From NCBI GenBank assembly GCA_947462105.1, contig CANHNJ010000001.1, forward strand, positions 124,001 through 188,000: a DNA stretch of 64,000 nt, in the 5' to 3' direction. The notes under the pieces were generated by a model. It had not been told where the DNA came from, searched no databases, and saw only the letters and a program-made list of their open reading frames with translations. Shown here one piece after another: positions 4,407 through 8,937 of this stretch. This stretch comes from Alphaproteobacteria bacterium (lineage in GTDB: Bacteria > Pseudomonadota > Alphaproteobacteria > Micropepsales > Micropepsaceae). The position numbers and the translations under genes were made by a program. Every line of letters starts with the position of its first letter. The first letter of the stretch is position 1.

Positions 4407-7400
4407 TCAGCTGCAACCCGTGGTCGAACCGCAGGTGTTGCACTTCATGCAGGTGCCGTTGCGCACCAGGGTGAAGTTGCCGCAACTACCACAATTATCG
4501 CCCTCGAAGCCCTTGAGCCTGGCTTCCGCCGCGCGGCGGGCGCGGGCATCGCGCCCAGTGCCCATAGCCGCTTCCAGCGTCGCCACCTGCGCGGCCACGC
4601 CCAGCTCGGCCTGCACGCTGGCGCCGATGGCGCTGATATCCAGCAGCTCGGCGTCATTGTCGGCGGCATAGTCCACGCCGCCAAATTGCGGGCTGTCATG
4701 GTCGTGATCCAGCATGCGGGCCGCACTACCCCCCACCACTGTCATGGAGCGGCCGCGAATATAGCCGCGCGAGGCCAGCTTGCTGATCTCGGCGCTGGGC
4801 GCCGTTGCGGCATTGCCCGCGCCAAGGTCTTCGTCCTGCGGCGGCACATGCGCCAGGTCGCTGCGGCCGAGATAGGAAACGCCCAGTTCGCGGAAGATAT
4901 AGTCCAGCACGCTGGTGGCGTTCTTGATGGAGTCGTTGCCGATCACCAGGCCCGCCGGTTCGAAGCGGGTAAAGGTGAAGGCGTCGACGAACTCCTCCAG
5001 CGGCACGCCATATTGCAGGCCCACCGAGATGGCGATGGCGAAATTGTTCATCAGGCTGCGGAAGGCGGCGCCTTCCTTGTGCATGTCGATGAAGATCTCG
5101 CCCAGGCGGCCATCTTCATACTCACCGGTATGGAGATAGACCTTGTGCCCGCCCACGATCGCCTTCTGGGTATAGCTCTTGCGGCGATGGGGCAGCTTTT
5201 CGCGTTCATGCACCCGGATGCGCTCGATCACCTTCTCGACGATGCGCTCGGTCACCACCGTCTGCTGCACGGGTGCGTGGGTGCGCGGCGCCGGCGCCTC
5301 TGCCGCCTCGTCATCTTCCTCGTCGATGAGCGAGAAGACCGTGCTGGCCAGCGGCTGGCTGAGCTTGGAGCCGTCGCGGTAGAGCGCGTTGGCCTTCAGG
5401 CCCAGCTTCCAAGATAGCATATAGGCTTCGCCGCAATCGTTCACGGCGGCGCTGTTGGGCATGTTGATGGTCTTGGAGATGGCGCCCGAGACGAAGGGCT
5501 GCACCGCCGCCATTATGCGGATATGGCTTTCCACCGACAGGGCGCGCTTGCCGGTGCGGCCACAGGGGTTGGCGCAGTCGAACACCGGCAGATGCTCGGC
5601 CTTCAGGTGTGGCGCGCCTTCCAGGGTCATGGCGCCGCAGACATGCAGGTTGGCGGCGTCGATATCGGGGCGGGCAAAGCCCAGCGCCTTGAGCAGGTCG
5701 AAATCGGGCGCGTCCATCGTGGCGGCGTCTATCTTCAGCGTCTCGCGGCAGAATTTCTCGCCCAGCGTCCACTTGTTGAAGACGAAGCGGATGTCAAAGG
5801 CGCTTTCCAGCCCGGCTTCCACCGCGCCGATCTGCTCGTCGGTGAAACCCTTGCCGCGCAGCGCGTCATAATTCAGGCGGCCGCGATAATCCTCCAGCGT
5901 GCCATAGCCGACCGCATAGGCGACGATGGCGTCGATCTCGGTCTGGCCATAGCCCAGATTCGCCAGCGCCTCGGGCACACAGCGGTTGATGATTTTGAAA
6001 TAGCCGCCGCCGGCCAGGGTCTTGAACTTCACCAGGGCGAAGTCCGGCTCCACGCCGGTGGTGTCGCAATCCATCACCAGGCCGATGGTGCCGGTGGGCG
6101 CGATCACGCTGGACTGGGCGTTGCGGAAGCCGAACTCCTTGCCCATCGATAGCGCGTCGTCCCAGGCGCGCTTGGCGGCGTCGGCCAGGGCGCGGTCGGG
6201 AATGGCCTTGAGGTCCAGCGGCACGGGCAGGGTGGCCAGCTTCTCGTAACCACTGCTCTCGCCATGTGCAGCGCGGCGATGGTTGCGGATCACCCGCAGC
6301 ATCGCGTCCTTGTTGGCGGCATATTCCGGGAACGGCCCCACCTCGCCTGCCATCTCCGCGCTGGTGGCATAGGAAACGCCGGTCATGATGGCGCTGATCG
6401 CGCTCGCGATGGCACGGCCTTCGCGGCTGTCATAGGAAATGCCTTCGCTCATCAGCAGGCCGCCGATATTGGCGAAGCCCAGGCCGAGGGTGCGGTAGTC
6501 ATAGGAAAGCTGCGCGATCTCCTTGGAGGGGAACTGCGCCATCAGCACCGAGATTTCCAGCACGATGGTCCAGAGCCGCGTCGCATGCTCGAAGGCATCG
6601 ATGTCGAAGCTGCGCGCACCCACATCGCCCTTGCGGAACGCCATCAGGTTGAGCGAGGCCAGGTTGCAGGCGGTATCGTCCAGGAACATGTATTCGCTGC
6701 ACGGATTGGAGGCGCGGATTTCGCCGCCCGCCGGGCAGGTGTGCCAGTCATTGATGCTGCTGTGGAACTGGATGCCGGGATCGGCGCAGGCCCAGGCGGC
6801 GTGGCTGACCTTCTGCCACAGCTCGCGTGCCTTCAGGGTCTTGGCCACGTGCGGCGTGCCGCGGAAAGTCAGGTTCCAGTCGCCATCTTCCTGCACCGCC
6901 TTGAGGAAGGCGTCGGTAACGCGCACCGAGTTGTTGGAATTCTGGCCCGAGACGCTGGTATAGGCGTCGGAATCCCAGTCGGTGTCATAGGTCTTGAAGT
7001 CGATTTCCTTGAAGCCCTGGCGCGCGAAGCTGATCACCCGCTCGATGTAATTGTCAGGGATCATGCTGCGGCGGGCGGCGCGGATCTCGCGGCGCAGGGC
7101 AGGGTTCTTGGCGGGATCAAAGCAGTCGTCGCCCGAACCGTCGCAATTGATGCAGGCCTTCATCACGGCCTTGAGGTGCTTCTCGGACAGCTTGGAACCG
7201 GCGACCATCGCGGCCACCTTCTGCTCCTCGATCACCTTCCACTCGATGAAATCCTCGATGTCGGGATGGTCGATATCCACGATCACCATCTTGGCGGCGC
7301 GGCGCGTGGTGCCGCCCGACTTGATCGCACCGGCGGCGCGGTCGCCGATCTTCAGGAAGCTCATCAGGCCGCTGGACTTGCCGCCGCCCGACAGTTTTTC

Positions 7401-8099
7401 ATCGGCGCCGCGCAGGGGCGAGAAGTTGGTGCCGGTGCCCGAGCCATACTTGAACAGCCGCGCCTCGCGGGTCCACAGGTCCATGATGCCGCCTTCATTG
7501 ACCAGGTCGTCCTTGACGCTCTGGATGAAGCAGGCATGCGGCTGCGGATGCTCATAGGCGCTGGTCGACTTGGTCAGTCGCCCGGTCTTGTGATCGACGT
7601 AATAGTGGCCCTGGCCGGGGCCATCGATGCCATAGGCCCAGTGCAGGCCGGTGTTGAACCATTGCGGCGAATTGGGCGCGCACTTCTGCGACGCCAGCAT
7701 GTGGCAAAGTTCGTCATAGAACGCGCGGGCGTCGGCCTCGCCATCGAAATAGCCACCCTTCCAGCCCCAATAGGCCCAGGTGCCGGCGAGACGGTCGAAG
7801 ACCTGCTTGGCCGACTTCTCGCCGGTGGTGTCCTTGCCGGCGCCCTGCTTCTTCCAGAGGAATTCCGGCACGCCTTCCTCGGCGACGGACTTCAGGGTCT
7901 TGGGGACCCCGGCCTTGCGGAAATATTTCTGCGCCAGCACATCGGACGCGACCTGGCTCCAGCTTTCCGGAACCTCGATGCCGTCCTGCGCAAACACCAC
8001 CGACCCGTCCGGGTTGCGGATTTCGCTGGCGGAGGTGCGGAACCCGATGCCCTCGTAAGGCGAATGACCTTCGACCGTAAAATGGCGGCGGATGCGCAT
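4407..8099 (-). CDS. nrdJ: Vitamin B12-dependent ribonucleotide reductase (class II)
   Basis: The enzyme reduces ribonucleotides to deoxyribonucleotides using adenosylcobalamin to make the thiyl radical. At 1230 residues it has the size of the long alphaproteobacterial NrdJ. Landmarks are an N-terminal block with [14 protein letters not shown], the [18 protein letters not shown] active-site segment, [11 protein letters not shown], and a Cys-rich tail (CGSCGNF...[13 protein letters not shown]) that can serve as redox shuttle or zinc ribbon. The start at 8099 is taken because homology-like sequence begins at [11 protein letters not shown] and GGAGTG lies about 6 bases upstream; the open frame continues 188 codons further with no protein-like features. 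No class I or III reductase is seen in the window. Confidence 0.97.
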
Positions 8100-8342
8100 G
8101 GGAAACACTCCGGAAAGTGACAGTTGGTCGGCCCCAGCCCTGCTCTTGGCACCACATCTTTTCTGGTCGCTTCGGCTCACGCCTGCGCTCCAGGGGACAG
8201 GAATCCGTCCGCGAGGATGAGATTCCTCACGGCGGGGGCCGTATAGCGTCCGCCAGATTTGGTGCCGTGTGCGACGGCTGGCCCAAAGTATGGACATGGG
8301 CTGCCGAGGCGCGCAAGCGGGAAGTGGTTCGCTGCAATTTGC
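8100..8342 (-). promoter_or_regulatory. Long nrdJ upstream region, possible structured leader
   Basis: No coding signal is seen in the 243 bases between the NrdR box and nrdJ. On the minus strand GCTATACGG near 8240-8248 could be a -10 element. Downstream of it GGAATC/GATTCC arms (8200-8205 and 8221-8226) and CTGG/CCAG arms (about 8163-8193) could fold. I could not recognise a cobalamin riboswitch (no B12 box). An nrdJ-associated RNA motif has been described in the literature, but I cannot test membership here. Confidence 0.35.
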
Positions 8343-8358
8343 CCACAATATCTTGTGG
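8343..8358 (-). promoter_or_regulatory. NrdR box upstream of nrdJ
   Basis: The 16-base palindrome CCACAATATCTTGTGG matches the NrdR repressor box consensus (ACACwATATATwGTGT) at nearly all core positions. It lies 243 bases upstream of the nrdJ start and on the correct side. NrdR boxes usually occur in pairs; I found no good second copy at 21 or 31 bases. An AT-rich CCAAAATATTTTCAGG at 8411-8426 is about 67 bases away and matches poorly. Repression of nrdJ by NrdR-ATP/dATP is the expected consequence. Confidence 0.75.
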
Positions 8359-8514
8359 CCAGGCAACCCTCTGAAAAGCTGGAGTCCGGCGGTACGCGCG
8401 GAACCCGGGCCCAAAATATTTTCAGGCCATTTCATCACAGCGCCGCGGACGCCTTTGGAGGCTTTGTGGATGGCGCGGCCAGGACGCCGGACGGCCCTGT
8501 GACTTTGCTTTGTC

Positions 8515-8543
8515 TTGGCTGCCCCAAGGCCCGCCCCTATAGT
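8515..8543 (+). promoter_or_regulatory. Probable sigma-70 promoter of the NDUFA12 gene
   Basis: TTGGCT (8515-8520), a 17-base spacer and TATAGT (8538-8543) form a good housekeeping promoter. Its start point would fall about 20 bases before the ATG at 8572. Confidence 0.55.
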
Positions 8544-8571
8544 CCGGCCCTTGAGTCTTGCGGTGCATCCA

Positions 8572-8937
8572 ATGATCTTTTCCTGGTGGAAATCCCAGAC
8601 AGTCGGAACTTGGCTGACGACGCGCCTGTATGGCGAGCCGGTGGGGACCGATGTCTTCGGCAACCGCTATTACCAGAACCGCGACGGCTCCCGCCGCTGG
8701 GTCACCTACAACGGCACCGTCGAGGCCAGCCGCGTGCCGCCGGACTGGCATGGCTGGCTGCATCACACCTATGCCGAACCGCCGACCAAGGCGCCGTTCA
8801 AGACCAAGGGCTTTGAAGCCGTGCACCAGCCCAACCTGACCGGCACCGAAGGCGCCTATCGTCCCGAAGGCTCGCTGAGCAAGGGCGGCGCGCGCCCGCC
8901 CGCGACCGGTGACTACCAGGCCTGGAAGCCGGAATGA
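8572..8937 (+). CDS. NADH:ubiquinone oxidoreductase accessory subunit, NDUFA12 family
   Basis: This is the bacterial homologue of the mitochondrial complex I subunit NDUFA12/B17.2 (121 residues), a supernumerary subunit typical of Alphaproteobacteria. The start [15 protein letters not shown] is the conserved one; an upstream in-frame ATG at 8515 overlaps the promoter. Recognisable blocks are [11 protein letters not shown], the RRWVTYNG segment, [11 protein letters not shown] and the terminal [10 protein letters not shown]. It stands apart from the nuo operon, as usual, and is followed by mlaD with a four-base overlap (ATGA). Confidence 0.93.

Follow-up and report, generated by a model that had tools for sequence, protein, structure and literature searches.

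Comparative evidence for a genus-wide structured leader RNA at nrdJ, with NrdR-like sites around its putative transcription start, in the alphaproteobacterial family Micropepsaceae

NrdR is described as a general repressor of ribonucleotide reductase (RNR) genes, and vitamin B12 riboswitches are known on operons for B12-independent RNRs (available part of PMC3848588). NrdR operators have been characterized at E. coli nrdAB, which has boxes 0, 1, and 2, and at S. pneumoniae nrdHEF, which has three boxes (excerpts of PMC12051234 and PMC12176259). The operator rule given in the accessible section of PMC12051234 requires two boxes that are set apart by whole helix turns, whereby the spacer measures 15–16 bp. 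For P. acnes, the portion of PMC3848588 at hand names a cobalamin riboswitch (RF00174) on nrdAB and nrdDG and not on nrdRJ. A “nrdJ RNA motif” is an Rfam prediction that is named in work on Streptomyces (part of PMC8388888). The nrdJ locus presented here resembles the E. coli and S. pneumoniae promoters in that 16-bp palindromic, NrdR-like sites are placed at whole helix turns around the putative promoter and number more than two, and it resembles E. coli nrdAB in having one box downstream of the promoter (same excerpts of PMC12051234 and PMC12176259). It differs from those promoters in that box 1 is 62 bp away from the next box, that the old box-2 position is degenerate, and that the last box lies inside a predicted structured leader. 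With the P. acnes RNR riboswitches, as far as the cited part of PMC3848588 describes them, the comparison is one of B12-linked RNR control by leader RNA, since this genome has such a riboswitch ahead of nrdA-nrdB; unlike RF00174, the nrdJ leader has another fold, and RF00174 was not found at nrdJ in the loci scanned. The nrdJ RNA motif, as mentioned in that part of PMC8388888, shares only the nrdJ-named RNA with our locus; no Rfam match was obtained here, though the model of that motif may not be among those scanned.

The window, i.e., the whole stretch of 64,000 nucleotides that was analyzed (GCA_947462105.1, contig CANHNJ010000001.1, positions 124,001 to 188,000), carries nrdJ on its minus strand at 4407..8099. 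The gene encodes a class II RNR of 1230 aa (Pfam PF02867, PF08471, PF12637), whereby PF08471 assigns NrdJ to the B12-dependent enzymes, in agreement with the preliminary description of this locus. The ATG start at 8099 is the same in related loci, and a probable Shine-Dalgarno sequence, GGAG (8108..8111, minus strand), is located 8 bases 5′ of it. The nrdJ reading frame stays open upstream across the whole leader up to a TTG at 8663 (window 4407–8663). This looks like chance in GC-rich DNA, as the compensatory pattern in relatives (see below) is RNA-like. The divergent neighbor at 8515–8937 is an NDUFA12-type gene (PF05071), so that its promoter and nrdJ use one intergenic region.

Within the window, CCACAATATCTTGTGG at 8343–8358 is the sole site that deviates by at most 3 mismatches from the NrdR consensus ACACWATATATWGTGT, with 0.03 such sites expected from shuffles. 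On the minus strand, this box 1 (CCACAAGATATTGTGG) has 13/16 matches to the consensus, and 243 bases separate it from the nrdJ ATG. The preliminary description had reported a near-perfect, single NrdR box at this distance. The box itself was confirmed, but it does not stand alone: another two NrdR-like sites follow at near-fixed spacing in 64 aligned loci. The best-matching site coincides in position with box 1 in 51 of these loci and lies at most one base off in 60, and it shows 9 to 13 consensus matches in 59 of the 64. In a related genus (L191–L194), box 1 is partnered by a site that lies 32 bases further on, over the −35 element; in the genus of the window, the likeness of this position to a box is lost. 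This box-2 position of related genera corresponds to 8328–8311, overlaps the −35 element, and is degenerate in the window’s genus, where the box-2 registers average about 6/16 consensus matches (64 loci). The genome encodes NrdR itself (PF22811 match), with a full reading frame that includes D15 and R17, the contact residues named in the accessible part of PMC9110341.

Conservation among the 64 loci, when anchored on the first base of the RNA model, suggests a −35 element TTGCGC (8311..8316), a −10 element CATACT (8287..8292), and a transcription start near 8280, all on the minus strand. The second T of the −35 element, at position −35, is kept in 63/64 loci, with its neighbors at 70–90 percent. 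In the −10 region, A, T, A, and T at −11, −10, −9, and −7 occur in 63, 59, 62, and 63 of 64 loci, respectively, and a T at −6 is present in 64/64. A −10 that had been placed in the middle of the leader (GCTATACGG, 8247–8239) falls where the aligned sequences vary, whereas CATACT at 8292–8287 is the −10 that is conserved. The NrdR-like box 3 (TGTCCATACTTTGGGC, 8281..8296, minus strand) overlaps this −10 element and has a mean of 7.1/16 consensus matches (8 in the window), whereby the contact bases C4 and G13 are present in 56/64 loci. The NrdR-like box 4 (GCACCAAATCTGGCGG, 8250..8265, minus strand) lies downstream of the putative start, has a mean of 9.7/16 matches (9 in the window), and retains C4 and G13 in 64/64 loci. 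The distance from box 1 to box 3 is 62 bases in 51/64 loci and within one base of 62 in 60, that from box 3 to box 4 is 31 bases in 49/64 and 32 in 15/64 (spacer of 15 or 16 bp), and box 4 lies 93–94 bases past box 1. In a ranking of offsets by consensus count, box 4 came first and box 1 second, and box 3 was the best remaining non-shifted offset. Box 4 was also the top offset in 50 loci that were scored with a matrix of 35 sites, which lie upstream of nrdJ in other alphaproteobacteria and were chosen by at least 13 consensus matches. Since boxes 3 and 4 fit the consensus moderately, NrdR binding at these two sites is a prediction.

Other elements were seen in the same region or at related loci. 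Upstream of box 1, at about 8392–8374, there is a CCGCTTGACTCGCGG-TTTT element that is conserved in the genus and degenerate in the window; its gap to box 1 is 11 bases longer in some species, which is about one helix turn. It may be another promoter or part of the divergent gene. Between box 1 and the −35 element (about 8343–8326), loci L116, L118, and L138 carry TTAA-N7-GTAA-like pairs, which are degenerate in the window and which we take to resemble the site of the cell-cycle regulator CtrA. A literature search on such CtrA-like pairs at nrdJ found nothing relevant. In Rhizobiales-type nrdJ loci (L061, L063, L064, L065, L070, L079, and L081), two good NrdR-like boxes stand 243 to 248 bases apart, an arrangement that could reflect looping or two promoters.

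For the comparative analysis of the leader, two queries, the leader DNA and the N terminus of NrdJ, were run against 96 genomes of the family and matched 55 and 92 of them, respectively; an order-level search gave the same 96 genomes. Upstream regions were taken from 90 family loci, and the alignment comprised 95 upstream sequences, including six from named records. Among the 69 genomes of the genus, conservation begins at box 1 and extends to about 50 bases 5′ of the ATG. A covariance model, R1, was built from 43 leaders with the window left out, and it matches the window at 8280–8184 with 58.2 bits and an E-value of 2.6e-9. R1 matches 64/96 family genomes, all of which belong to the genus of the window (64/69) and carry a match at nrdJ. 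Of these, 43 supplied the leaders from which R1 was built, and 21, the window among them, did not. The five genus genomes that were missed comprise two without an nrdJ start, one whose contig starts within nrdJ, and two with degenerate leaders (L137, L174). The preliminary description had set conservation of the leader in relatives as one test of its proposal. Such conservation is found within the genus but not beyond it, as R1 matches none of the 27 family genomes that belong to other genera. Three genomes show an extra weak match off nrdJ (G020:C30, G024:C69, and G017:C1:1604743; E 8e-4 to 0.048), beside which no RNR or B12 gene was recognized by eye among ORFs of at least 120 aa. A search of 385 genomes of the class under stricter filters yielded four matches, all from this genus, and missed one genus member, so that distant forms may have escaped. 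Out of 80 named nrdJ loci, six (L002–L007) have an upstream match, whereby the scores equal those of six genomes already counted, and thus these are not new leaders; twelve weaker matches at named loci (E 0.0045 to 0.78) lie inside the nrdJ coding sequence.

The Rfam covariance scan that had been recommended for nrdJ-associated and cobalamin models gave no family at its gathering score in the window’s leader, nor any family at E up to 1 in related upstream loci (n = 20, of which 15 come from this genus). When E-values up to 10 were admitted for the window, three sub-threshold matches to eukaryotic families appeared near the leader (E 0.9 to 9.2), which are attributed to chance; the best of them is mir-58 on the opposite strand (E 0.9). 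A search of the open-access literature found no report of this nrdJ leader. As far as these scans and searches show, the leader is new as an RNA family, and it is of a known kind.

The structured leader RNA is predicted to extend over 8135..8280 (minus strand), with the putative +1 near 8280 and with a helix P1 that closes P2 and P3. Folded alone, the window’s leader is only slightly more stable than its shuffles (z −1.9; 8/200 shuffles as good), and the evidence for structure comes from the relatives. In 63 distinct aligned rows, 81 percent of the cells of the R1 structure are paired compared to 37–51 percent when the structure is slid, figures that are favored by an alignment fitted to the structure. 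The alignment of leaders, which had been proposed as a check for compensatory changes, revealed that 17 of the 25 R1 pairs change on both sides. P1 joins 8280–8260 to 8154–8135 (minus strand), so that the 5′ end meets a segment about 100 nt further on; the first 22 nt of the leader are complementary to the 36 nt that follow GUCCCC. Over 38 sequences under 80 percent identity, the native P1 duplex has a mean energy of −23.5 kcal/mol versus −18.8 kcal/mol after partner exchange, and 0/20,000 shuffles reach the native value, which also holds within two clades (0/20,000). With 15 sequences, the counts are 0/20,000 across clades and 3/20,000 within clades. Of the controls, the Shine-Dalgarno region gave 851/20,000 across and 4315/20,000 within clades, while the reversed 3′ segment (8951/20,000 and 10,694/20,000) and the P3 strand (18,700/20,000 and 19,369/20,000) were flat. 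The P1 duplex of the window itself (−25.6 kcal/mol) is equaled by 6/58 foreign 3′ segments and by 0/58 foreign 5′ segments. Folding by energy only yields P1, counted as at least 8 long-range pairs, in 25/38 leaders, and the fold of the window keeps it with 15.2 expected long-range pairs. In the short part of P1 that falls within R1, 81 percent of cells are paired and 1/3 pairs changes on both sides.

P2 (8193..8254, minus strand) pairs GG(C)GGAC at 8254–8248 with GUCCCC at 8198–8193. It is paired in 83 percent of cells with changes on both sides in 2/6 pairs, and its covariation (11/20000 within clades, 556/20000 across) is weaker than that of P3; the window’s own P2 is absent from the energy-only fold of the window. 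The hairpin P3 (8209..8232, minus strand) has 6/7 model pairs that change on both sides and covaries as strongly as P1 (0/20000 shuffles). The leader further contains a conserved internal loop, AAAUCU opposite NRAAY, with conserved bases on both sides. Two sets of complementary arms that had been noted before fit less well. GGAATC/GATTCC (8226–8221, 8205–8200) exist as letters, but their pairing excludes the covarying P3, and CTGG/CCAG (8193–8190, 8166–8163) fall within an inserted dispersed repeat or at its border. The idea of a structured leader specific to nrdJ is strongly supported by the covariation in relatives. Comparison of the aligned loci shows conservation of the predicted leader, as well as P1, P3, and, in part, P2 and the hairpin H1 that is described below.

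One could argue that this conservation acts mostly at the level of the DNA, where it would reflect NrdR boxes 3 and 4 and a palindromic operator that is read as H1, and that the RNA fold is a by-product. It would fit such an explanation that box 4 is the best NrdR-like offset and that H1 is a palindrome at the putative start site. However, P1 and P3 covary between separated strands, and the same applies to the loop of H1, which H1 itself leaves unconstrained, and the 3′ segment of P1 (1/20,000 within clades). Covariation of separated strands is not predicted by duplex-DNA binding, and we regard a mainly DNA-level origin as improbable. Box 4 does overlap an RNA-constrained motif of the nrdJ leader.

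The copy in the window carries an insertion of the dispersed repeat GGAGCGCAGGCGTGAGCCGAAGCGACCAGAAAAG (8158..8191, minus strand), which lies between P2 and the P1 3′ strand, occupies the conserved loop of the leader, and was not seen in the other aligned leaders. Similar copies, with 17 to 20 of 21 core bases, occur at ten other places in seven genomes, two of them in this genome and eight in six others; an exact-type search that tolerated up to 3 mismatches detected the repeat in 5 of 12 genomes. The window’s leader may be an impaired member of the family, the relatives having leaders without the insertion. The repeat, as GGAGCGnnGGCGTGAGCCGGAGCGACC at 8191–8158, contains a small GGC-GTGA-GCC hairpin. 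By eye, several of its copies lie shortly 5′ of an ATG, and once it is found in tandem (L254).

H1 (GCCGU...ACGGC, 8264..8278, minus strand) is a hairpin that excludes P1. Its 4 model pairs are paired to 96.4 percent in the 63 distinct rows, 3 of them with changes on both sides, and the window’s H1 has a compensatory U-A pair. The covariation of H1 amounts to 0/20000 across clades and 2213/20000 within clades, the latter being not significant, and 6/38 leaders have no run of 4 pairs. H1 with at least 4 pairs can be imposed in 32/38 leaders at a mean cost of 2.4 kcal/mol; in the 20 leaders with P1 as best fold the cost is 3.7 kcal/mol (0.1 to 8.1). In the fold of the window, none of the expected pairs fall in H1. 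Since H1 is weak within clades, missing in 6/38 leaders, and without weight in the window’s fold, the case for a switch rests mostly on one clade-level change. Among the 9 bases of the Shine-Dalgarno region, 5.5 are paired with H1 forced versus 5.7 in the best fold (predicted folds of 20 leaders), and the window’s leader yielded no terminator-like site. Together with the weak H1 signal, this led us to consider it likely that the leader regulates nrdJ and possible that a ligand-driven switch operates there. A candidate for Shine-Dalgarno sequestration, the C-rich motif CUGUCCCC, was rejected, as its covariation (1187/20000) was not significant.

Two more specific forms of such regulation can be weighed against these data. 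The leader could represent a new riboswitch class, in which the internal loop would bind adenosylcobalamin, a nucleotide, or a deoxynucleotide and would thereby favor P1 or H1. This would agree with two exclusive folds of similar energy that are both largely kept, with loop bases conserved on both sides, and with the fact that each of the 64 genomes in which the leader occurs has it at nrdJ. However, no expression platform was found among the features examined (terminator-like site, Shine-Dalgarno pairing), the conservation on the 5′ side of the loop may stem from NrdR box 4, and H1 is weak within clades. Moreover, the association with one gene only gives no hint to the ligand. Thus, we consider a new riboswitch class rather unlikely. 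Alternatively, the 5′-terminal helix might do no more than protect the 5′ end of the mRNA from decay, in the manner of the ompA stem, whereby H1 would be a folding intermediate. P1 starts at the putative +1 and covaries as strongly as P3, just as one would expect of a protective helix, but the conserved internal loop and the wide conservation of H1 would be left unexplained, so that protection as the sole function is a tentative option at best.

Since the enzyme needs B12 and cobalamin riboswitches are common in these genomes (found in 90/96 of the family), a diverged cobalamin riboswitch at nrdJ might also come to mind. The preliminary description had failed to identify one, and the Rfam models bear this out: RF00174 has no match in the window’s leader (E up to 10) nor in the 20 related upstream loci (E up to 1), whereas the same model does match elsewhere in genomes of this family. 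A diverged member of this class is therefore very improbable. The one cobalamin riboswitch found in this genome is located at G000:C4:66892. It belongs to a region (L245, G000:C4:66300–76000) in which the riboswitch is followed on the same strand by genes for a TonB receptor, a periplasmic binding protein, a FecCD permease, and an ABC ATPase, and then by nrdA and nrdB. Genes for putative B12 uptake and for a B12-independent RNR may share one B12-controlled operon. Class I small-chain genes exceed the cut-off in 36/96 genomes. Such a gene is present in 30 and absent from 34 of the 64 leader-bearing genomes, which makes the leader independent of a second RNR.

Overall, the data point to a structured leader that is specific to nrdJ, occurs across the genus, and has NrdR-like sites around its putative start, and we consider a two-level control of nrdJ probable, with NrdR acting at the DNA and a cis-acting RNA leader acting after initiation. 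In such a two-level control, the NrdR sites would stand in helical phase, with box 1 upstream and boxes 3 and 4 over the −10 element and just after +1, and the dATP-sensing repressor would block initiation at nrdJ via these boxes. The transcript would start near 8280, its first nucleotides being the 5′ strand of P1, and P1 would close P2 and P3 into one rod of roughly 130–150 nt with the conserved internal loop. The leader would then set nrdJ output after initiation, most likely by the choice between the P1 and H1 folds or by shielding the 5′ end from decay. The start site, NrdR binding, and cis-regulation are what we infer for nrdJ from the aligned loci. A bolder version, which we consider unlikely, is an orphan riboswitch class for class II RNR, where NrdR would read dATP at the promoter and the 5′ RNA would read a second signal, adenosylcobalamin or a nucleotide, by the choice between H1 and P1. 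If this were true, one stretch would serve as a repressor site in the DNA and as an aptamer loop in the RNA, given the overlap with the last NrdR box. The site where an NrdR-like box overlaps a constrained RNA loop offers a clean case to separate selection on DNA from selection on RNA, and the nrdJ leader would be an orphan RNA with a directly testable ligand. A leader on the B12-dependent gene itself would add a second, post-initiation layer to the control of DNA precursor supply.
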